Assembly (NCBI RefSeq): GCF_017301735.1
Contig: NZ_CP071090.1
Location: 9,662,001-9,726,000 of the forward strand
Source of the DNA: Pyxidicoccus parkwaysis
GTDB taxonomy: Bacteria > Myxococcota > Myxococcia > Myxococcales > Myxococcaceae
DNA length: 64,000 nt
Reading direction: 5' to 3'
The notes under the pieces were generated by a model. That model was given only the letters and a program-made list of their open reading frames with translations, had not been told where the DNA came from and ran no database searches. Positions 11,548 through 23,814 of this stretch are shown one piece after another (within the stretch, counting starts at the first letter, position 1; every line of letters begins with the position of its first letter). A program made the translations under genes and the position numbers.

Positions 11548-13841
11548 GCGCTCGCGTGCGGGGCCTCCGCCCTCGTGCCCGGACGCGGAGCGGGGGCTGC
11601 ATTCCCGAGCAGGCGTGGCAGGCGCACCATGAAGGTGGTGCCCTCCCGGGGGTTGGAGCGGACGCGCAGCATGCCGCCGTGCGCGTCCACGATGTGCTTC
11701 ACGATGAACAGGCCCAACCCCAGGCCCCGGCTGTCGCGCGCGTCCTTGCGCTCGGCGCGCTTCATCGGCTCGAACAGGCGCGAGCGCAGCTCCGGCGGAA
11801 TGGCCGGCCCCAGGTTGTGCACCGCGAGCGCCACCGTGCCCCGCGTGCCGTGCGTGCGCACCCGCACCGGCCCCTGCTCCTCGCTATGGTGGATGGCGTT
11901 GTTCACCAGGTTGGTGATGACCTGCGCCAGCCGGTCCGCGTCCCATAGGCCCCGGCCGTCGCCGCTGCACTCGATGACCAGCCTCCGCTCGGGATTGGCG
12001 AGCTGCACCTCGTCCACCACCTGCCGGGTCAGCTCGTGCAAATCGAACAGCCGGGGCTGCATGGGGATGCCGCCGCCCAGCCGGGCCTGGGTGAAGTCCA
12101 GCACGTCGCGCAGCATGCGCGTGGCGCGCTCGGCGCTGGAGAGGATGCGGCCGATGACCTTGCGCTGCCGCTCATCCAATTCCTCGCGCCGCAGCAGCGT
12201 GGTGGTGGCCATGGTGATGGCGGAGATGGGGTTGCGCAAATCATGACCGACGATGCCGATGAGCAACTGCTCGAACTCCGCGCGGCGCTTCGCCTCCTGC
12301 TCCGCGGCCCGTCGCTCGGTGATGTCCTGCATGGCGCCCACCATGCGCACCGCGCGGCCCGCCGCGTTCCGAATCACCTGCCCCCGGTCCGAGATGACGG
12401 CCCACGTCCCGTCCCCGCGCAGGAAGCGGTACTCGTCCGTCCAGTGACTGCCGCCCTCGTCGATGAGGACCTGCATGTCGTGGCTCACCCGCTCGCGGTC
12501 CTCGGGATGGATGCGCCGCGTCCATTCGTTGATGTCCAGCTTCGGGTGGTGGGGCAGGAGGCGGAACTGCTGGGCGGCCAGCTCGCTCCACTCGATGTGA
12601 CCGGTGTCGAGCTGCCAGTCGTAGATGACGTCGCTGGTGGCCAGGGTGGCCAGCCGGTAGCGCATCTCCGACTGGGCGATGACCTCCTGCGCCCGGTGGC
12701 GCTCGGTGATGTCCAGCGACACGCCGGCCACGCTCACCACCCTGCCGTCGGGCCCCAGCACGGGGGAGATTCGCACCTCCAACCAGGTGCCGGAAATCTC
12801 CAGGTCCAGGGTGAAGCTCTCACCGGCCTGAGCGCGGCGAGCGGCCTCGAGGAGGTCCGGCCGGTCCGCGAACACCTCGGAGGCGGAGTGGCCCACGAGC
12901 TTGCTTCCGTCCAGACCGGCGGCCTGCAGTGCTTCGCCCTCGCAGAAGTTGATGATGCCCTTCGCGTCCGTGGACCAGATGACGATGGGAAGCTGGGTGA
13001 GGATGCGGCGCAGGTGCTCGCGGACCTCGTCGCGCTCGCGCTCGGCGCGCTTCACCTCGGTGATGTCGGTGGAGATGCCGCAGATGGCCGCCACGCCACC
13101 CGCCTCGTCCGGCAGGGGGAACTTGACCGACTGGTAGATGTGGGGCCCGTCCGCATGCACGATGAGCTCGTCGGTGACGATGGGCTGGCTGCTGGCGAGC
13201 ACCTGCAGGTCACTGAGCCGGCAGACCTCCGCCATGTCGGGCGGCAGCAGTTCCTGGTCCGTGTGGCCCAGCACCTCCTCCCGGCTCTTGCCGAGCGACT
13301 GCCCGAAGGTGCGGTTGATGAAGAGGTAGCGACCGCGCGAGTCCTTCGCGTAGATGTCGGCCGGCGCATGGTCGAGGATGCCGAGCAACGTCGCCTGGCT
13401 GGCCCGCAGGCTCCGCTCGCGCTCGCGGCCATGCTGCGCCACCGCTTCCGCGAGCCCCACGTCGAGCGTCTGGTTGAGCATGCGCAGCGCGGCCAGCTCC
13501 GGCCTCCAGCCCGCCTCGTCGAGCACCTCGAGGATGGCGTCGCGCAGCAGGCCGTACTCACGCACCAGCGTACCCACGTCCACGCCCGCCGCGTGGCGCT
13601 CGAGGCCAAGCCGGCCACCGAAGGCCCGCGCCCTCTCCAGGTCATGCGTCACATGCGGCCTGCGCAGCACGTCCACCAGCGCGTCCACCAGGCCAGACGC
13701 GCCGCGCATCCGCGGCTCGCGGCCAGGCGCCCCCTTTGCCAACACCTCGCCCACGAGCGCCTCCCAGCGCCGGAGGATGTCCTGCCTCCGGGCCTCCAGC
13801 ACGTCGGGAAGGAGGCAGGGCGGTGTCGCGCAGGGGTTCAT
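11544..13841 (-). CDS. Soluble multi-PAS sensor histidine kinase with RsbRD-like N domain
   Basis: A 765-residue cytoplasmic histidine kinase starting at ATG 13841 (MNPCATPPCLLPDV). Residues about 1-190 resemble the RsbRD N-terminal four-helix sensor domain. Three PAS domains follow, ending in DITEVKRAE, DITERHRAQ and DITERRAAE. The kinase core has the phosphoacceptor H533 in GHDLRNP, an N box NLVNNAIHH, an F-box-like RLFEP and the glycine box GLGLGLFIVKHIVDAHGG. No membrane helix is present, so it senses an internal signal such as redox state, ligand or light through PAS. No response regulator is adjacent, as is common for orphan kinases in myxobacteria. Confidence 0.93.
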   Translation of the reverse strand: MNPCATPPCLLPDVLEARRQDILRRWEALVGEVLAKGAPGREPRMRGASGLVDALVDVLRRPHVTHDLERARAFGGRLGLERHAAGVDVGTLVREYGLLRDAILEVLDEAGWRPELAALRMLNQTLDVGLAEAVAQHGRERERSLRASQATLLGILDHAPADIYAKDSRGRYLFINRTFGQSLGKSREEVLGHTDQELLPPDMAEVCRLSDLQVLASSQPIVTDELIVHADGPHIYQSVKFPLPDEAGGVAAICGISTDITEVKRAERERDEVREHLRRILTQLPIVIWSTDAKGIINFCEGEALQAAGLDGSKLVGHSASEVFADRPDLLEAARRAQAGESFTLDLEISGTWLEVRISPVLGPDGRVVSVAGVSLDITERHRAQEVIAQSEMRYRLATLATSDVIYDWQLDTGHIEWSELAAQQFRLLPHHPKLDINEWTRRIHPEDRERVSHDMQVLIDEGGSHWTDEYRFLRGDGTWAVISDRGQVIRNAAGRAVRMVGAMQDITERRAAEQEAKRRAEFEQLLIGIVGHDLRNPISAITMATTTLLRREELDERQRKVIGRILSSAERATRMLRDVLDFTQARLGGGIPMQPRLFDLHELTRQVVDEVQLANPERRLVIECSGDGRGLWDADRLAQVITNLVNNAIHHSEEQGPVRVRTHGTRGTVALAVHNLGPAIPPELRSRLFEPMKRAERKDARDSRGLGLGLFIVKHIVDAHGGMLRVRSNPREGTTFMVRLPRLLGNAAPAPRPGTRAEAPHASA

Positions 13842-13975
13842 GCAAGCGCCTCCCCTCCAGTGGAGGTGTGCAGCCCGGGACGATGAGGGACGGGCATGGC
13901 TGTCACAATTTGGATACCTCCCAGGAGAGATGGGGGCTCTTCGCCCCGCTGTCGGAGCCGGGTGATGGCCCGCAC

Positions 13976-14001
13976 AGGAGGCGACCACGGGTGCGCCTCC
14001 T
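13976..14001 (-). terminator. Hairpin after the nuclease gene
   Basis: A perfect 8-bp inverted repeat, AGGAGGCG at 13976-13983 and CGCCTCCT at 13994-14001, lies just past the nuclease stop in the direction of transcription. It separates the three-gene cassette from the histidine kinase. No U tract follows, so termination is inferred. Confidence 0.45.
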
Positions 14002-14017
14002 CTCAGAAAGAGCACGC

Positions 14018-14512
14018 TCACCGCTGACAAGGCACTGGCGAGCAGGCGCCCCAGATACCCCTCCGCGCACGCCGGGCCTCGGCCTCCAGCGCCTCGAACT
14101 CGGAGCGCCGCGCGGTGCCCGCGGGCGGCACGTGCAGCACACAGGCATGGCCCCGCTCCACCAGGAGCGTGTTCACCTCGCGCCCATCCACGGACACGTA
14201 TGCGAGCAGCCGGCCAAAACGGTCCGTGCATGCCTCGCCGTAGGCCAGCGTCACCTGACGTCCCTCGACGAGGCCACGGTTGAAGGCGTGGGCCTCCGGG
14301 CCGAAGCAGTCCTGTCTTCCTCCCGTGCTCTCCGGCGTGTCGACGAGCAGGTAGCGGATGCGCTCGCCACTCTCGAGGAGGAGCGTGTCCCCGTCGATGG
14401 CCTCCGCCACCCGGGCGGTGGTGGGTCCACAGGAGGAAGCCGTCTCTCCTCCACAGGACAGGAGCACGGTGGCCAGCACCGCGAGACACGCCCACCGGCT
14501 CACAGCGCGCAT
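14018..14512 (-). CDS. SNase-like (thermonuclease) lipoprotein
   Basis: A 164-residue staphylococcal-nuclease-fold protein with a lipoprotein signal: the lipobox LLSC puts the lipidated Cys at residue 20. Catalytic residues of the fold are present: R53, D58 and E61 in IRYLLVDTPES, and R101 in DRFGRLLAYV. It should therefore cut DNA or RNA in a calcium-dependent way at the envelope or cell surface. Extra cysteines (C28, C69, C95 and near the end) may form disulfides. Its start lies inside the end of the lamin-tail gene (13-bp overlap), so the two are probably translated together. It is the last gene of a three-gene cassette. Confidence 0.9.
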   Translation of the reverse strand: MRAVSRWACLAVLATVLLSCGGETASSCGPTTARVAEAIDGDTLLLESGERIRYLLVDTPESTGGRQDCFGPEAHAFNRGLVEGRQVTLAYGEACTDRFGRLLAYVSVDGREVNTLLVERGHACVLHVPPAGTARRSEFEALEAEARRARRGIWGACSPVPCQR

Positions 14513-16425
14513 GAACGGTTCTCCATGCCCGGGGTTCCACGGTCCCCGAGGCCATACCGGGCCGCTGTGGGCGCGGGACAGAAGCTCCCCGCGAGGTCAT
14601 TCCGCATGGGGTCGCTCCGTGTCGGGTCCACCTGCGAGGACACGCCCGGCACCGCCGCCGTCGTCCACGTCACCGCGTCCAGCAACCGTCCCTCCACGGA
14701 GAGCCGGAGCATGCGGTTGCCCTCACTGTTCGCGAGGTTGAAGGAGAACGTGCCGAACACCGAGGGCAGTCCGCCGTTGACGGACGCGTCCTCGCTGCGA
14801 GCGATGACCGCCCGGCCACCTGCCCTCAATGACAGACACAGTGTCGAGGTGAGCGCCGTGCTGCTACCGCTCTCGTTGGAGAGGGTGACGCCGTTGAGGT
14901 CCACGTCCCTCAGCGCGAGCACTTCGACCCACTCGCCCGTCGCGTCCGCCACGGCGCTCGGGTCCGCCATGAATTCGGTGAGGACCAGTGAGCCCGAGTC
15001 CGGGACTCTCGATGCTCGGGCCTTCCCGGTCGACCGGTCGATGCAACTGTTTGCCGGAACGCCCGCGTCCGTGGTGCCTCCGTCCATCGTCCCCGCGTCG
15101 GGCCTGCCTCCGTCGGCAGTCCCTGCATCGGCCCTGACTCCTCCGTCCGTGGAGCCCGCGTCGGGTCTACCTCCATCCGCCGAGCCCGCATCCGCACGGC
15201 CTCCGTCCGACGCACCCGCGTCCGGGACTCCGCCGTCCGTGCCACCGCCCACCGTACACACGTGGTTCGGCCTGCCCGGTGTCCCCAGGTTGCCGCGTGT
15301 CCCGTAGGCCTCCGTGGCCCGGCACCATGCGTCCTGTGAGTCATTGCGCTTCGCATCCGCCATGGACGCGGACACCTGCGTGGCCACGCCCTCCTCGGCG
15401 GGCCCATACACAGCAGCGTCGATGAGCACGTCTCCCGCCCGCACCGTCACCACGCCACCCGAGTTGCGCAGGTCCACGCCAAACGTGGCCACGGGCTGAG
15501 GCAGCCCACCGTTGAGCACCGCATCCGTGCGACGTGCCAGCACCACGCGCTCGCCCGCCGTGAGCGACAGGCACGTCTTTCCCTCCAGCTTCGTCCCCGA
15601 CGAGTCTGTGCCCACCGTCAGTCCATTCAGGTCCACGGGCACGGCGGCCAGAAGCTCCACCCACTCGCCCAGCGTGTCGTCGCCGCGCGGATTGGCCATC
15701 ACCTCGGTGATGACCAGGTCCCCCGCGCGCGGCCGTACCACGGGCCTCGCGGTGGAAGCTCCCATGGGCACACAGGACTCCACGACGCCCGCGTCCCCTG
15801 TCGATGTGTTCGGAGGCAGCGTCGGGTCGCACGGTGCATTCGCCTCACCCGGGCTTCCTCGCCCCGGACCCGCGTCCTCCGCACCGGCTCCGTCACACCA
15901 GCGCTCCGGGTCATCATTCCCCGCCGAGTCGGGCACGAGCCGGCCGTCGTAGATGCGGGCCACTCCGCTTTTCGAGGGCGCGGTGAGCTGTACTTCGTCA
16001 ACAACCCGCTCGCCGCACCGCACGCCCAGCTTCCCACCCGTGTTGCCCAGTGCGCCGAGCGCATCTCCGTATGCGTGGTCCACGTGCGCGGGCAACGAGC
16101 CCTCGCGCACGTCTCCGAGCACGAGGTAGTCCCCAGCGGCCACCGGCACGTTGCTGGTGAAGAGATACGCCCGCTCCTGCGAGCCATCCGAGCGGGCCGC
16201 GTAGAGCGTCAGTCCATGCAGGTCCACGGTGGCTCGCGTGGGATTGTGCAGCTCGACGTACTCCTGCCCGGTGTCCGTCCCCACGGGGTCATTCAGGTAC
16301 TCGGTGATGACGAGGTCTCCGGCCAATGTCCCGGCGCATGCCTCGTCCACGGCGTCGTCCAGGGACACTCCTCCACACGCCCATGCGCCGAGCAGCACCA
16401 TCCCTCCCAGCACCCATCCCCTCAT
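14500..16425 (-). CDS. Lipoprotein-like protein with three lamin-tail domains
   Basis: A 641-residue secreted protein starting at ATG 16425. The signal ends at LLGAWACGG, an imperfect lipobox (Trp at -2). Three lamin-tail (LTD) beta-domains start at LAGDLVITEYLNDP, RAGDLVITEVMANP and DSGSLVLTEFMADP. Each carries the family's E(Y/W)VEL core and DLxGxTL strand. Between the second and third lies a linker of repeated DAG/DGG units. Bacterial LTDs are often joined to extracellular nucleases or phosphatases and may bind nucleic acid or surfaces. The overlap with the SNase gene and the HhH-barrel gene upstream suggest a joint surface task. Confidence 0.87.
   Translation of the reverse strand: MRGWVLGGMVLLGAWACGGVSLDDAVDEACAGTLAGDLVITEYLNDPVGTDTGQEYVELHNPTRATVDLHGLTLYAARSDGSQERAYLFTSNVPVAAGDYLVLGDVREGSLPAHVDHAYGDALGALGNTGGKLGVRCGERVVDEVQLTAPSKSGVARIYDGRLVPDSAGNDDPERWCDGAGAEDAGPGRGSPGEANAPCDPTLPPNTSTGDAGVVESCVPMGASTARPVVRPRAGDLVITEVMANPRGDDTLGEWVELLAAVPVDLNGLTVGTDSSGTKLEGKTCLSLTAGERVVLARRTDAVLNGGLPQPVATFGVDLRNSGGVVTVRAGDVLIDAAVYGPAEEGVATQVSASMADAKRNDSQDAWCRATEAYGTRGNLGTPGRPNHVCTVGGGTDGGVPDAGASDGGRADAGSADGGRPDAGSTDGGVRADAGTADGGRPDAGTMDGGTTDAGVPANSCIDRSTGKARASRVPDSGSLVLTEFMADPSAVADATGEWVEVLALRDVDLNGVTLSNESGSSTALTSTLCLSLRAGGRAVIARSEDASVNGGLPSVFGTFSFNLANSEGNRMLRLSVEGRLLDAVTWTTAAVPGVSSQVDPTRSDPMRNDLAGSFCPAPTAARYGLGDRGTPGMENRSCAL
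15057..15240 (-). repeat. About 30-bp tandem repeat encoding DAG/DGG linker
   Basis: Six or so in-frame units of roughly 30 bp encode DAGxxDGGxx decapeptides (DAGASDGGRA, DAGSADGGRP and variants) within the lamin-tail protein. Such Asp-Ala-Gly linkers are frequent in secreted myxobacterial proteins and probably act as flexible spacers. The array is likely to vary in copy number between strains. Confidence 0.8.
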
Positions 16426-16478
16426 GTCGGCAACCCTCACGTTCAACGACCGCTGTTTCACTGCACATCCACGGCGCG

Positions 16479-18560
16479 TCAGAACCGCGTCTCCACTTCC
16501 AGGTGGAAGAGATGGCGCGGCGGGTCCGGCGGCACACGGGCCGTGCGCGCGTCCTTCAAGTCGAGCACCCACGTGTAACGGGTCCGCGCCGTCACCGCGC
16601 GCAGCGCCCAGCTCGCGTCCACGGCGGTGCGCAACTCCTGCCGGAGCCGGCTTCGCTCGGAGAGGTCCTCGTCCTTCCACACCACGCGGCCCCCAAGCTT
16701 CACGGAATCCACGGGAGTGAGCCGCACCTCGAGCACGGCCTGTCCGTCATAACGGGGCTCCAGGGCATCAGGCTCCACCACTCGCGCGTGGCCGTACTGC
16801 ACCGCCACCGTCACGCCCTCGGTGAGCTCGGACCGCACTCGCGCGATGACACGTTGACGCCCTCGCGCGCAGGAAGTCGCTCCGTCCTCGGCATCCACCC
16901 CTGTATCCGTGAAACAGGCTCCCGAGCCGCGCAGCTCCACCTGGAGCGATGGTTGGAATCGCGGCCATGCGAGCCAATCCGCGCGGGCGGAGGCACGCAC
17001 CTGCATCGTGCCCGCTGTTCCCGGCTCCGTGCCGTCGGCCGGCAGCGTCCAGGCATCCACCTGTCCCCGCACCCGCCAGACACGTTCCTCGCGCTGGAGG
17101 TAGCGCACGCGAGCGCCCAGCTCGTTGCGCACGCGCAGGCCCTCCAGCGCATCCGGCCCGGAGGGCGCGCCACTGTAGGGATTGGCGAAGTCGCGCCCGT
17201 AGTAGCGCAGGGCCACCTCCAGCTCACGCTGGGCACCCGAGAGCACGGTGCGCTGGAGGGCCGCGAAGCCTCCGCCACCATCCGGTGCGGCATCGAAGCT
17301 GCGCGTTCCCTCGAAGAAGAGGTCCACCGCGCCACGGCCCCAGGCCGCATCGAGCCCGAGCGCGCCGAAGCCTCCGCCCGCCGGGTAGCGGGCACTCGGC
17401 TGGAAGTCGAGCCGCGCTCCCTCCAAGGACCACACCGGCCGCGCCGCCCAGCCCGTCAGCCCCACATGCGCACGCGGAGACACGGACAGCATCGCATTGC
17501 CTCCGCCCGCCCACTCACGGAACACACCCGGCACGGTGCGCGCCGTGAGCTTCTCCACGTGAGAGCCTGACAATGGCACCAGCACCTCCGGAGCCCGGCA
17601 CGTGCCACGCGGGTCCGCACACGCGGAGCGGTCCAGCACCGCGCTCCGCTTCAACGAGCGGTGCTGATACGAGCCAAAGCCCGTGAGTGACAGCGTCGCG
17701 CCCATGCCCACCGGACCGCGCACCCTTCCCGCGACGCCACGAAAGCCTTCATCCCAGGCGAAGTCGGGAGTGACGTCGGACAGGCGCTCCTCGGGCTCGC
17801 ACCCGGTGCCGCTGACGAGACACTCGCGCTCCAAGGCTCCAGGTGGCCGCACGCCATCGTCGGGAAGGAAGCCCTCCGGTGACGGCAACGACGTGGTGTC
17901 CAGTGTGAGGCGCTGACCGAAGCCCAGTCGGTAAGTGCCCGCCAACACGGAGGCACGCTCGCCAGACCACTGCGCGTAGAACTTCGGCAGCAGCACCGCC
18001 GCACCGGGCGCATCCACGACGAGCGCGCGCCGCGCCGCATCCCGACGCAGCATTCCCAGACGGCGACGTGCGAGCGAGACGAGAACCCCCGTCCTCACCC
18101 CCGCGACTCCAGAAGCGCGGACCTGCAATGCAGCGGGAGGCAGCAGCGAGTCCGACGCGGCGAAAGCCATCAACAGCCGCGCATCGCCCGTGAGCCGCCC
18201 GGGCTCACGCTTCACCAGGAACGACGCGAGCCTCCGCTCCTCTTCCTCCGTGAGCCCCGACACCGCTGACTGGGACTCACCGTGCCGGAGCAGCAGCGCA
18301 TCCACCTCCGCGTACGTCAGCCCGGGCAGTCCATACAGCGTGGCACGCGACGCGAGCCTCGGGTCCACTCCGGACCGCCGCAGCGCCAGGAGCGCCGCGA
18401 GCGTCTCGCCCGAGATGGCCCCCTCTTCCGCCAGCGCGAGCAGGTCCAATTCGCCCGCCGCCTCCGGCTCCACCTCATACGGCGCCGCCCGCGCCGGTAC
18501 CGCGAAGACCAGCCACCACCCCAACACCCCCACCCACCCCACAGCGAGAACGCGACGCAC
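16479..18560 (-). CDS. Outer-membrane beta-barrel with N-terminal helix-hairpin-helix domain
   Basis: About 693 residues from GTG 18560 (MRRVLAVGWVGVLGWW), which has AGAGGG upstream; a GTG at 18590 is the alternative. A signal peptide ends near PARAAPYE. Residues about 35-115 form ComEA-like HhH repeats (DPRLASRATLYGLPGLTYAEVDALLLRHG region, then GLTEEEERRLASF). The rest is alternating amphipathic strands with aromatic girdles and ends VETRF, the C-terminal Phe signature of BAM-inserted barrels. HhH motifs usually bind DNA. The lamin-tail gene begins 53 bp downstream. I infer an outer-membrane protein of a surface DNA-handling set; no name is established. Confidence 0.8.
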   Translation of the reverse strand: MRRVLAVGWVGVLGWWLVFAVPARAAPYEVEPEAAGELDLLALAEEGAISGETLAALLALRRSGVDPRLASRATLYGLPGLTYAEVDALLLRHGESQSAVSGLTEEEERRLASFLVKREPGRLTGDARLLMAFAASDSLLPPAALQVRASGVAGVRTGVLVSLARRRLGMLRRDAARRALVVDAPGAAVLLPKFYAQWSGERASVLAGTYRLGFGQRLTLDTTSLPSPEGFLPDDGVRPPGALERECLVSGTGCEPEERLSDVTPDFAWDEGFRGVAGRVRGPVGMGATLSLTGFGSYQHRSLKRSAVLDRSACADPRGTCRAPEVLVPLSGSHVEKLTARTVPGVFREWAGGGNAMLSVSPRAHVGLTGWAARPVWSLEGARLDFQPSARYPAGGGFGALGLDAAWGRGAVDLFFEGTRSFDAAPDGGGGFAALQRTVLSGAQRELEVALRYYGRDFANPYSGAPSGPDALEGLRVRNELGARVRYLQREERVWRVRGQVDAWTLPADGTEPGTAGTMQVRASARADWLAWPRFQPSLQVELRGSGACFTDTGVDAEDGATSCARGRQRVIARVRSELTEGVTVAVQYGHARVVEPDALEPRYDGQAVLEVRLTPVDSVKLGGRVVWKDEDLSERSRLRQELRTAVDASWALRAVTARTRYTWVLDLKDARTARVPPDPPRHLFHLEVETRF

Positions 18561-18662
18561 GCCGCGAACCCTCTGCACATCCGAAGCCACCGTTCCCTAC
18601 AGCGACTCCAATCCCTCACACCGTCCGCATCACGGACCCGGTGTCCAACAGCGAGACACGCC

Positions 18663-18860
18663 TCAGGCCCGAGCGGCCCAGGGGGCCACCCGCAACAGCT
18701 CCTCCGCCACCGACTGCGCGGCCACGGCGCGGGCCTCCGCGGCTGCATGGCGCTGCCGTGATTCCTCGCTCCCATCCAGCGCGTCCAAAGCCTGACGCAG
18801 GTCGGACTCGGTGGTCAGCAGCAGTGCCGCCAGGTGCATTCGCTCCAATTCCATCAGCAT
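18663..18860 (-). CDS. Small helical protein of unknown function
   Basis: A possible 65-residue protein starting MLMELERMHLAALLLTTESD. It is mostly helical, with Leu/Glu/Arg/Ala heptads and the stretch RQRHAAAEARAVAAQSVAEEL. In-frame starts further upstream would add an unconvincing N-terminus. No ribosome site is clear. It is not recognised. Its codon pattern is plausible and it does not overlap another gene, but evidence is modest. Confidence 0.4.
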   Translation of the reverse strand: MLMELERMHLAALLLTTESDLRQALDALDGSEESRQRHAAAEARAVAAQSVAEELLRVAPWAARA

Positions 18861-19073
18861 CCACGAGACTCCGCTCGGCACCCTGCCATTCATTAACACC
18901 GCCATAGCAGGGGGGCCCGACGCCCTTTTCTCCTGTGCCAGTGCAGACTCGGGGCCAGCCTCCCCGGCCACCAGCCGAGCGCGCGTCCACACCGCCTGTG
19001 CAACGGGGGACTCCCTCCGTCTCCCGGGCGGGAAGTGTGTCGCTCCATCCATGTATGCTGTCGCTCCGCTCCA

Positions 19074-19847
19074 ATGGGATACGTCCACATCGTCCGAGAC
19101 TTCCCCTCCCCCCAGGAGGGCTTCGCCCGCACCGTGCGCGTCTACACACCCGACGCCTACGACGCGCTGCCGCATCACCGCTTCCCCGTGCTCTACATGC
19201 ACGACGGGCAGAACGTCTTCGCCCACCCGGAGTCGGCCCGCTTCGAGACGTGGTGCGCCAACCTCGCCCTGGAGCAGGGCGTGGGCGAGGGCCGCATGGA
19301 GCCGTGGATCATCGTCGCGGTGGACTCGGGCGCCGGCCGCCTCCAGGAGTACTCCCCCTGGGACGAGCCGCGCGGCCACGTGAAGGCCCGGGGCGAGGCC
19401 TACGGCCGCTTCCTCGTGGAGCACCTCAAGCCGCTGGTGGACCGCACCTACCGCACGCGTCCCGAGGCCGAGTGGACCTGCGCCATGGGCTCGTCCCTGG
19501 GCGGGCTGATTTCCCTGTACCTCGGCTGCCGCTATCCCAACGTCTTCGGCCGCATCGGCGCGCTGTCGCCCACCGTCATGTGGAGCCAGGGCCGCCTCTT
19601 CCAGGAGTGGGCCGCCCACCGCCGCAGCTGGACACGCATCTACCTGGATGCGGGAGAGCAGGAGTTCATCCACACCGACGGCGTTCCCCTCAACTACGGC
19701 GAGGCCACGCGCGCCTTCTACGAGCACCTCCAGCGCGCGGGCTACGCCGCCCACGAGGTTTCCCTGGTGCTGGAGCCCGGAGGCGAGCACCACGAGCGAG
19801 ACTGGCAGCGCCGCCTGCCCCACGCGATGCAGTGGCTCCTGGGGTGA
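19074..19847 (+). CDS. Esterase (alpha/beta hydrolase, esterase D/IroE-like)
   Basis: A 257-residue alpha/beta hydrolase starting at ATG 19074 (MGYVHIVRDFPSP). The nucleophile elbow is G139-S-S141-L-G, and the acid/His end is GGEHHERDWQRRLPHAM. VLYMHDGQNVF is typical of the putative-esterase family that includes enterochelin esterase-like enzymes and feruloyl esterases. No signal peptide is present, so it is cytosolic. The substrate is unknown. The DUF2378 gene starts 11 bp after its stop, so the two are likely one operon. Confidence 0.87.
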   Translation: MGYVHIVRDFPSPQEGFARTVRVYTPDAYDALPHHRFPVLYMHDGQNVFAHPESARFETWCANLALEQGVGEGRMEPWIIVAVDSGAGRLQEYSPWDEPRGHVKARGEAYGRFLVEHLKPLVDRTYRTRPEAEWTCAMGSSLGGLISLYLGCRYPNVFGRIGALSPTVMWSQGRLFQEWAAHRRSWTRIYLDAGEQEFIHTDGVPLNYGEATRAFYEHLQRAGYAAHEVSLVLEPGGEHHERDWQRRLPHAMQWLLG

Positions 19848-19857
19848 GGCACCGCGC

Positions 19858-20436
19858 TTGAAGCTCCGCAAACCCGTGCCGCTGGAGCAGCGGCTCGTCT
19901 ATGTGCAGGTGGTGGAAGGCCTGCTCCAGCATGGACTCAACGGCCGGGTAACGCCCCGGCTGAAGCAGCGGCTGCGGCAGGTGGGCGTCGACCTGGACCG
20001 GCCCCTCCTGCCCGCCTACCCCGTGCCGCTGTGGACGCACTGCCTGTCCATCATCGTCGACGAGGCCTACCCCGGCATTCCCCGCGAGGAGGCCTTCCGG
20101 CGGCTGGCCGAGACGCACGTGCAGGGCTACGGGCGCACCGTCATCGGCCGCGCGGTGTTCGGCGTCATGCGGCTGCTGGGCCCGCGCCGCCTGGTGCTGC
20201 GCATCCCCCAGACACTGCGGGCCACGGACAACTACACGGAGGTGGAGCTGCTGGAGCGCGGCCCCACCACCTACGAGATGAAGATGAACTCCGTGGTCGA
20301 ACCACCGGGCTACGTCGAGTCCCTCTTCGAGTCCCTGCTCCGCGTGGGCGGAGCCGAGTCCCCGAAGGTGTCGCGGATTCACGTGGACCCGGGGACCCCG
20401 AGCACCACGTACCAGCTCACCTGGGCGGAGCGCTGA
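19858..20436 (+). CDS. DUF2378 family protein (myxobacterial paralogous family)
   Basis: A 192-residue protein starting at TTG 19858, chosen because GTGAGG lies eight bases upstream and the protein then begins MKLRKPVPLEQRL. It matches the Myxococcus-specific paralogous family DUF2378 along its length: VEGLLQHGLNGRVTP, RPLLPAYPVPLWTHCL, ETHVQGYGRTVIGRAVF and LRATDNYTEVEL are all recognisable. These proteins occur in dozens of copies per genome and their function is unknown. Short spacing after the esterase suggests cotranscription. It is convergent with the ATP-grasp gene, six bases away. Confidence 0.9.
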   Translation: MKLRKPVPLEQRLVYVQVVEGLLQHGLNGRVTPRLKQRLRQVGVDLDRPLLPAYPVPLWTHCLSIIVDEAYPGIPREEAFRRLAETHVQGYGRTVIGRAVFGVMRLLGPRRLVLRIPQTLRATDNYTEVELLERGPTTYEMKMNSVVEPPGYVESLFESLLRVGGAESPKVSRIHVDPGTPSTTYQLTWAER

Positions 20437-21609: not shown

Positions 21610-21780
21610 GGCTCCTCGGAGCGGGTCCCGACGACGTTGACCATAGCGGCGCCCGGGGGCGAGGCCTACTTCCTTGCCGGCCCTCCAGGAGGGTGTACGA
21701 CATTTCACTCCCCGCGTGGGATGGCCTTGGAATGAAATGCCAGGGAGGCGAGCAGGACTACGTGGAGGGGGGTGGTCCTC

Positions 21781-23814
21781 ATGGAGCGCGGGCGCCTACG
21801 CTCCCGGGTACCCACCCCCGCTGTGAGGTCCGCCACGAACCGCTTCACGGGAGCCGCGACTCCACTCAGCCCCCAGGGCATCGACGCTTGTGCCAGCCGG
21901 TTGTCCGTCCACGCAGTGGAGCTGTGGACGGTGCTCCAGGTGGAGACGCGCGGCTGCGGCTACTTCGCCGACCGCCGGCCCATCATCCTCTTCGAGCGGC
22001 ACATCTTCAGTAAGCGGACGAAGGGCCGCTTCGACGCGCAGGCGCCGGACATCAGCAACCCGAAGGCCGGCGGCTACGCGGGCGGCGTGGCGGAGTACGA
22101 GCGGCTGGAGAAGGCGATGGCGCTGGACTCATCCGCGGCGCTGAGCAGCGCGTCGTGGGGCCTGGGCCAGGTGATGGGCTTCCACGCCGCGGACCTGGGC
22201 TACGGCACCGTCGAGCAGTTCGTCGAGCGGATGATGGCGTCGGAGGACGAGCAGTTCGGCGCGCTCGCGGCGTTCATCGAGAAGAACGGGCTGGTGAAGG
22301 CGCTGACGAACCACGACTGGGCGAGCTTCGCGAAGAGCTACAACGGCCCGGCGTACGAGAAGAACCAGTACGACAAGAAGCTGGCCCAGGCGTACCAGCG
22401 CCTGTCCACGCAGGCCGCGCCCGACCTGAACGTGCGCGAGGGACAGATGCGGCTGATGTTCCTCGGCTTCGAGCCGGGGACTCCGGATGGGGCGATGGGC
22501 TCGCACACGAAGGCGGCCCTGAAGAAGTTCCAGGCGCAGCAGCAGCTCCCCATCACCGCCGAGTTCGACGCGGCCACGATGGATGCGCTGAGGAAGCAGC
22601 AGGCCCTGCTGCCCCGGAGTGATGGCGTGACTGCTGTCGCGACTCCGCCGGTCGCGGTGCCGGTACTCACGGCGGCGCCTGCTGCCGCGCCCGCGCCGGC
22701 CCCTGCCGTCAGCGCGCCCGCGACAGCCCCTGCGCAGACAAGCTCTCCCGTCGCGCCCGCGACAGCACTGGCGCCGATGAGTGCCCCCGCAGCCTCCGCA
22801 CCTGCGTTCGCGGCAAGCCCTCCCGCGTCGACGTCCGCAATCACGGTCTCCCCCGCGTCCGCGCCCCTCGCCGCTCCCGCCACACCGAGCACGGCCATCA
22901 CCGCGCCGGCTGCCAGCGCCGCCGCGCCAGTCACGGCCATCACTGCGCCGGCCGCCAGCGCCGCCGCACCGGGCACGACCATCACCGCGCCGGCCTGGAG
23001 GCTCGCGCCTCGCGACAGCCCCGGCACCGCGGCCACGCTCGAGCCCCTGCCCTCCTTCGCCACGGTGCCCGTGCTGGAGCAGGCCCCGCCCCTTCCGGAG
23101 CCGCTGGGCACACAGCTCCGCGAGCGCCTCACACAGCCGCTCGACGCAGAAGTGCAGGCCGAGCTCTCACGCGTCCTCATCCTGCGCGGCAGGGTCGCAC
23201 CGGAGCTCGGGACGCCGGCCATGGAGACGCTGGAGCTGTGCGTCACCGCGCTCCTCGCGGACAAGCCCAACCTGTCCTTCGCGACGAACACGCGCCAGCG
23301 CATCGCGGCCGAGCTCAAGGACCGCATCTACCCGCTGCGCCCGATGCCCATCCTTCGCTCCCCGTCTCCGGCCATGCAGGTGGTGCTCGGGCTGTTGCTG
23401 CACCTGGTGATCAGCCACACCGTCACCACCATCGTGGAACACTTCATCACCGACGAAGCGAAGACCCTCGGCATCCCCCTGCGCATGATCCTGCTGGCGG
23501 GCTCGTGCGGGGCCATCGGCGGGGCGGTGAGCCTGCTGATGCGGCTCGGGGACTTCGAGAAGCTGCGCGGCGCCAGTCGTCTCTCCATGGTGATGCAGGG
23601 CTTCTTCAAGCCGTTGGTCGGCTCGTACTGCGCCATCTTCGGCCTCGCACTGATGAAGTCCGGAGTGATTCCCCTGCAGACGGGCTCGCAGGACACGGCG
23701 CTCTTCCTCCACATGTCCGTGGCCTTCCTGCTCGGCTTCAGCGAGCGGCTCGCGCAGGACCTGTTCATCCGAGCGGGCGAGGGCCTCACCTCCGTGGGAA
23801 CGAACCGCTCCTGA
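21781..23814 (+). CDS. N-acetylmuramidase / PG-binding protein with C-terminal membrane domain
   Basis: About 677 residues from ATG 21781, preceded by GGAGGGGGG. Domains in order: a muramidase of the phage-lysin type (residues about 35-200) with the catalytic Glu in IILFERHIF and SSASWGLGQVMGF; a PG_binding_1 domain (about 215-275, FLGFEPGTPDGAMGSHTKAALKKF); a roughly 130-residue Ala/Pro/Thr linker with repeated ITAPAASAAAP units; a helical region; and a C-terminal domain with about four membrane helices (residues about 515-665). No signal peptide is seen. Fusing a lysin to a membrane domain is odd. It could be a membrane-held cell-wall enzyme or a predation effector. Confidence 0.85.
   Translation: MERGRLRSRVPTPAVRSATNRFTGAATPLSPQGIDACASRLSVHAVELWTVLQVETRGCGYFADRRPIILFERHIFSKRTKGRFDAQAPDISNPKAGGYAGGVAEYERLEKAMALDSSAALSSASWGLGQVMGFHAADLGYGTVEQFVERMMASEDEQFGALAAFIEKNGLVKALTNHDWASFAKSYNGPAYEKNQYDKKLAQAYQRLSTQAAPDLNVREGQMRLMFLGFEPGTPDGAMGSHTKAALKKFQAQQQLPITAEFDAATMDALRKQQALLPRSDGVTAVATPPVAVPVLTAAPAAAPAPAPAVSAPATAPAQTSSPVAPATALAPMSAPAASAPAFAASPPASTSAITVSPASAPLAAPATPSTAITAPAASAAAPVTAITAPAASAAAPGTTITAPAWRLAPRDSPGTAATLEPLPSFATVPVLEQAPPLPEPLGTQLRERLTQPLDAEVQAELSRVLILRGRVAPELGTPAMETLELCVTALLADKPNLSFATNTRQRIAAELKDRIYPLRPMPILRSPSPAMQVVLGLLLHLVISHTVTTIVEHFITDEAKTLGIPLRMILLAGSCGAIGGAVSLLMRLGDFEKLRGASRLSMVMQGFFKPLVGSYCAIFGLALMKSGVIPLQTGSQDTALFLHMSVAFLLGFSERLAQDLFIRAGEGLTSVGTNRS

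Follow-up and report, generated by a model that had tools for sequence, protein, structure and literature searches.

The window analysed here is a stretch of 64,000 nucleotides from the genome of Pyxidicoccus parkwaysis, a single contig of 13.2 Mb whose nearest relatives, by the titles of their records, belong mostly to Myxococcus and Pyxidicoccus. Three genes follow one another on its minus strand, and their features, in window positions, are these:

16479–18560, minus strand: HhH-barrel gene (GTG start at 18560, stop at 16479), 693 aa; outer-membrane beta-barrel with an N-terminal HhH-fold domain, predicted to be periplasmic
18231–18452, minus strand: HhH-fold helices, barrel residues 37–110; ComEA-like by profile, acidic and without canonical hairpin residues
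16485–18191, minus strand: 24 predicted transmembrane strands, residues 124–692, with long odd-to-even loops, short even-to-odd turns and the C-terminal Phe 693
14500–16425, minus strand: lamin tail domain (LTD) protein gene (ATG at 16425, stop at 14500), 641 aa; secreted, strongly acidic, probable lipoprotein
16108–16323, minus strand: first LTD domain (genome 9678108–9678323)
15460–15726, minus strand: second LTD domain (genome 9677460–9677726)
14626–15015, minus strand: third LTD domain, with approximate limits set by eye from a repeated motif
14018–14512, minus strand: SNase-fold lipoprotein nuclease gene (ATG at 14512, stop at 14018), 164 aa; active-site residues intact

The original prediction had described three minus-strand genes with a gap of 53 bp, here between the barrel and LTD genes, and then an overlap of 13 bp, here between the LTD and SNase genes, and our reading of the sequence confirmed these coordinates. 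There was no Rfam match in positions 13000–20000, and a scan of the locus for promoters and terminators remained at chance level. On the 5' side of the barrel gene is a 62-aa open reading frame (18663–18851, minus strand) that is present, with 63–82% identity, in near relatives (25 of 53 loci), and that has no match in Pfam or NCBIfam.

The barrel protein and its HhH-fold domain

An AlphaFold2 model of the barrel protein, built on an alignment of 55 sequences (that of the window and 54 relatives), has a mean pLDDT of 88.9 and a pTM of 0.87, with helices at residues 37–110 followed by 24 long strands between residues 124 and 692. A barrel with an HhH fold and a C-terminal Phe had been predicted, and the model, a profile match and the alignment, in which the terminal Phe is invariant (24/24 aligned barrels), agree on all of this; structure prediction, which had been suggested as a check, found both the barrel and the HhH fold. 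Because the loops that follow odd strands are long (7 to 59 residues in the window's protein) and the turns that follow even strands are short (2 to 6 residues), the model points to the usual outer-membrane topology, with both barrel termini and the HhH domain probably on the periplasmic side, a placement at odds with the earlier idea that the HhH domain is a surface element. Foldseek ranked large barrels highest, foremost the ushers FimD and PapC (E 2e-10, TM about 0.37); these ushers, alike in barrel size, share about 9% identity with the protein. VIA-align gave tied Z scores of about 16–17 to many barrels of different sizes, the ushers (16.1–16.3) standing level with smaller ones. Given the low TM to the ushers and the tied scores across sizes, the description as a large outer-membrane barrel is well supported and homology to one particular barrel is not.

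Pfam detected neither a usher domain nor, at E≤0.1, a TonB plug or TonB-dependent receptor domain in 24 barrels, so that any uptake through them would have to proceed without that energy source. Pfam finds nothing in the window's barrel protein, even at E≤1, and no Pfam or NCBIfam model was found for the barrel beyond its HhH part. A TonB-like gene, recognized by eye from its proline-rich sequence and N-terminal membrane segment, lies near the barrel on its 5' side at 10 of 65 loci (L107, L112, L115, L118, L137, L143, L147, L150, L154, and L162); its position probably reflects clade synteny. In one genome (G012; L097/L050) a frameshift or an assembly error divides the barrel between two reading frames. 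The predicted net charge of the lumen, which was derived from strand parity and not from coordinates, has a median of +11 and is positive in 54 of the 55 sequences, and lumen arginines assigned in the same way occur at positions 437, 452, 526, and 661 in all 55; these values, obtained without a control barrel, are only suggestive of an arginine-rich and positive lumen.

The N-terminus of the protein has a tandem HhH fold. Pfam's HHH_3 matches 17 of 24 aligned members of the family, and the family profile matches, at about positions 47–115, both a ComEA chain (8dss, E 7.3e-8; positions 51–112) and EEPD1 (9yi2, E 3e-8). We compared the charge of 55 barrel HhH cores with that of 20 stand-alone ComEA-like HhH domains from the same phylum, these controls being picked by hand and not drawn at random (18 came from a longer list of HhH-only matches). 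The controls have a median net charge of +7.5 and 19 of the 20 are positive, the sole exception (L178) being aligned over 39 residues only; their hairpins, for example PGVG and KGFG, are followed by lysines. The barrel cores, in contrast, have a median net charge of −6, with only 5 of 55 positive and that of the window at 0. Their first hairpin reads [N/G]-L-T, the form G-[VA]-[LI]-[TS] also occurs, G-h-G does not, and the helix after hairpin 1 carries D or E at position 85 in 39/55 and D at position 87 in 52/55. The prediction that the HhH domain captures DNA is therefore not supported, because in comparison with the ComEA-like proteins of the same phylum the core is acidic and the hairpin glycines and the lysines have been lost. 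The likeness to ComEA consists in the fold, by profile, and in the periplasmic location; unlike ComEA, a small periplasmic or membrane-anchored protein, the domain is fused to a 24-strand barrel. Most likely it now serves a different purpose, docking or gating for example, and an HhH fold should not be taken as a sign of DNA binding in this family.

The lamin tail protein and the nucleases

The three LTD domains predicted for the middle protein were recovered as three stretches that match the Pfam domain (PF00932) with 88.9 bits, above the gathering score (E 3.5e-25). The LTD proteins are acidic, long and repetitive, and the small SNase proteins are acidic too. As both HhH and LTD are acidic and the HhH has no DNA-binding hairpins, neither looks like a DNA binder. 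In the window's LTD protein, Cys 17 (in AWAC) is not accepted by a relaxed lipobox pattern, which 58 of 65 relatives pass; judged from sequence, the protein is probably a lipoprotein whose lipobox is weak in P. parkwaysis. The same pattern is found in 53 of 56 small SNases and 40 of 45 second nucleases, and in only 5 of the 79 barrels that served as controls, in support of the secretion signals that had been predicted for the products of the cassette. LTD proteins are numerous in this genome (G000), where thirteen LTD domain matches were found, two of them in this cassette.

The third protein fits its description as an SNase-fold lipoprotein with intact catalytic residues: it has a Pfam match (PF00565, E 5.8e-20) and a lipobox (LLSC), and in the alignment its D42, R53, D58, E61, and R101 are the equivalents of Asp21, Arg35, Asp40, Glu43, and Arg87 of the Staphylococcus aureus nuclease, which we take to have active-site roles there. 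D42, R53, E61, and R101 are kept in 41/41 of the small SNases (SNS, the type of small nuclease found in the window) and D58 in 38/41. A larger second nuclease (SNL), not found in the window's genome, is about 360–460 aa long and lipoprotein-like, and all 35 members have an SNase domain with invariant active-site equivalents; in 15 of these 35, Pfam also matches an OB fold (tRNA_anti-codon). The SNase part of an SNL model (pLDDT 88.6) matches staphylococcal nuclease with Z 16.4 and rmsd 2.2 over 134 residues. The cassette SNase thus has the fold and active-site residues of the staphylococcal-type thermonucleases but differs from them in being a lipoprotein encoded in an operon-like row, with a second form to which an OB fold has been added. 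None of the three cassette proteins has a Pfam match to an EEP nuclease. An apparent fusion of SNase to the PAS kinase in Corallococcus (L094–L096), in which the frame runs 1077–1290 residues into the kinase, was dismissed as an artefact of high G+C, because the linker has the look of a shadow frame.

Conservation of the cassette

A neighbourhood analysis in relatives across the phylum, also suggested at the outset, found conserved linkage. Of 53 loci that come from relatives in the same order, 47 have the LTD gene by the barrel gene and 42 the SNase gene; at the 19 distant loci among them (L061–L079), the corresponding counts are 16 and 12. The three distant loci that miss the LTD gene (L067, L077, and L079) have just 56–1159 bases left after the barrel, and among the seven that miss the SNase gene, L066, L067, L070, L077, and L079 are near contig ends and L076 and L078 are real absences. 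With the outermost flanking genes lying near the edge of the fetched stretches, the flanking esterase, 196-aa gene, ATP-grasp gene, MFS gene, 62-aa open reading frame, and the gene at 21772–23814 occur at 0/19 distant loci and the kinase at 2/19. The PAS kinase on the 3' side, the 62-aa frame on the 5' side, the esterase, the ATP-grasp gene, and the other flanks were rejected as cassette members, as they accompany it in near relatives only. The three genes are a real and sharply bounded conserved unit.

A scan of genome contigs for the barrel gave 119 relatives, of which the best 80 (L084–L163) were used; none of these 80 has a title that names Bacteroidota. Among these best 80, the orders SNL-LTD-SNS-barrel (19 loci), barrel-LTD-SNS (15), and barrel-SNL-LTD-SNS (15) are the commonest; SNL-LTD-barrel occurs at 6, LTD-SNS-barrel at 4, other partial sets at 12, and the barrel alone at 9. 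In seven of these nine, at most 57 bases follow the barrel; another (L141) has less than 300 bases before it on a truncated contig, and the last (L108) has a partial SNL. The barrel comes first at loci titled Myxococcus, Corallococcus, Archangium, and Myxococcaceae, and last at loci titled Kofleriaceae, Nannocystis, Enhygromyxa, Polyangia, and others; that two gene orders keep the same parts together is an argument that selection acts on the set. Median intergenic gaps within the cassettes are −4 to 50 bases. An all-against-all clustering of the neighbours at 65 loci (L099–L163) returned the barrel at 62, LTD at 52, SNase at 47, and the next family at 10, with no nucleotidase or nucleotide transporter among the recurrent neighbours. 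No open reading frame in the best 80 of 119 combines LTD with another of the four cassette models. One locus (L088), titled “Comamonas sp. KCTC 72670”, has a cassette barrel about 70% identical to that of the window; the record is probably mislabelled and its genome that of a Myxococcus. A tblastn search of plasmids with the L112 barrel gave no match.

The phylum was sampled with 156 genomes of 90% or more completeness, using cut-offs of E≤1e-19 for the barrel, at least 110 bits for the small SNase, and at least 190 bits for the second nuclease, and reading the two-by-two counts by hand. The barrel is present in 88 genomes and SNS in 83: 81 have both, 7 the barrel only, 2 SNS only, and 66 neither, and all 25 genomes with SNL have the barrel. 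Among the barrel-only genomes, G015 and G165 are cut short by the end of a contig and the assembly of G105 is fragmented; in G046, G059, G039, and G163 no small SNase was detected. With G166, these last make five genomes in which a barrel occurs and no small SNase can be detected; LTD adjoins the barrel in four of them and in G059 the contig ends. The two SNS-only genomes (G073 and G110) have no barrel within the 15–16 kb fetched. All seven genomes coded g16, from the same family, are without barrel and without SNS. Divergent barrels in families f24 to f29 stand in an LTD-SNS-barrel row at four loci (L197, L199, L202, and L203) and in an LTD-barrel row at two (L198 and L201), and at L200 the barrel lies at the very end of the contig. 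Thus LTD is the barrel's most constant partner, and SNS is nearly as constant. Most Myxococcaceae and many further members of the phylum have the cassette, which is absent from others in the sample. Two genomes of 2.1–2.7 Mb (G046, L078; G059, L207), in the same family as myxobacteria of 9–13 Mb, keep the barrel with no SNase seen; at L078, LTD adjoins it.

Possible roles of the cassette

Both nucleases match the PADLOC candidate family C3a212 “SNc+LTD” (E 3e-15 and 5e-16), so SNase and LTD seem to be joined in other proteins; this family differs from the cassette in that its description has no barrel and that the window's LTD protein does not match it. A defence system was rejected, as PADLOC gave only this candidate and a chance-level match to Cas2e. 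The ExeM and Xds proteins of Shewanella and Vibrio resemble the cassette in pairing an LTD with an extracellular nuclease: ExeM remains cell-associated and needs its LTD for full nuclease activity (PMC6085458). They are, however, single polypeptides with an EEP nuclease, whereas the cassette has separate LTD and SNase proteins and an outer-membrane barrel. In Riemerella, an HhH protein and a separate barrel (RA0C_RS02645, RA0C_RS04915/04920) are needed for transformation (PMC8459023); by that description the parts are alike, but HhH and barrel are not fused and neither LTD nor thermonuclease appears in the text. A description of the cassette itself was not found in the literature searched, including PMC8289736, PMC11495043, PMC3593177, and PMC12021427.

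From the genes, their folds, the intact active sites, the secretion signals, and the conserved linkage, we infer complex formation, exposure, a substrate, and transport, and suggest as quite possible, if not quite at an even chance, that the cassette encodes a surface nucleic-acid-processing complex with a dedicated, Sus-like outer-membrane conduit. In Sus-type systems, surface lipoproteins and enzymes are encoded together with an outer-membrane barrel; the likeness of SusC/SusD to the cassette is in logic only, as Pfam finds no TonB plug or SusD domain and the cassette has an HhH fold and a nuclease instead of a glycosidase. The working model is such a set of surface enzyme, lipoprotein, and barrel with nucleic acid replacing glycan. 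The SNase lipoprotein, of which many relatives have two, would cut extracellular DNA or RNA, the LTD lipoprotein would hold the parts together at the mouth of the barrel, and the resulting oligonucleotides or nucleotides would pass the outer membrane through the wide arginine-lined barrel; on the periplasmic side, the HhH-fold domain may serve as a gate or docking module and not as a DNA clamp. Against this conduit stand the facts that the lumen charge comes from strand parity without a control barrel, that neither of the acidic HhH and LTD parts is like a DNA binder, that five genomes keep the barrel without a detectable small SNase (four with LTD adjoining), and that the recurrent neighbours include no nucleotidase or nucleotide transporter and the 24 barrels no TonB plug. 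The boldest version, a “Sus system for DNA” in which a barrel of about 24 strands, with a periplasmic HhH gate and LTD at its mouth, imports the oligonucleotides made by its own nucleases, is somewhat doubtful.

The genomes that have barrel and LTD without a nuclease, together with the lost DNA-binding features of the HhH domain, keep alive a different possibility, namely that the barrel exports or anchors at the surface the LTD and nuclease lipoproteins encoded with it, the HhH domain docking these clients and nothing being imported. We consider this unlikely but a serious contender. The barrel always adjoins lipoprotein genes, the relaxed lipobox being common in LTD and nucleases and rare in barrels; LTD is kept where nucleases are absent (L078, L076, L198, and L201); by topology the helical domain lies in the periplasm, and it does not resemble a DNA binder; and the nearest large barrels by Foldseek, the ushers, move proteins, although that similarity is at the level of the barrel only. 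The Slam exporter, which handles lipoproteins encoded next to it in just such a manner, combines a TPR domain with a 14-strand barrel, but the cassette barrel has HhH instead of TPR and 24 strands, with no link to Slam in fold or sequence, and export would leave the lumen arginines without explanation.

It is improbable that barrel and LTD form the core of a structural or adhesive envelope module, for attachment to matrix or eDNA, with the nuclease as an accessory that trims the matrix: barrel and LTD are indeed the constant pair, even in very divergent copies (L198 and L201), and the LTD protein is long, acidic, and repetitive, but with a nuclease in 81 of the 88 barrel genomes, a second one in 25, and conserved active sites, the nuclease is too constant for an accessory. 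Uptake of DNA for natural transformation, with the HhH domain acting like ComEA to pull DNA through the barrel, would suit a wide barrel and a periplasmic HhH fold related by profile to ComEA. Nonetheless the charge and hairpin residues of ComEA have been lost and the nucleases would destroy transforming DNA; since separate ComEA-like proteins, nearly all of them basic, are present in many cassette genomes (two in that of the window), this is the least likely reading, and a very improbable one.

Whichever reading applies, the cassette is a conserved and uncharacterised envelope gene set that bears on the role of bacterial lamin tail domains and on how myxobacteria handle the nucleic acid of prey or matrix. 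If the import of oligonucleotides were true, a “Sus system for DNA” would extend across a phylum rich in predators, and the bacterial lamin tail domain would have its first defined partner.
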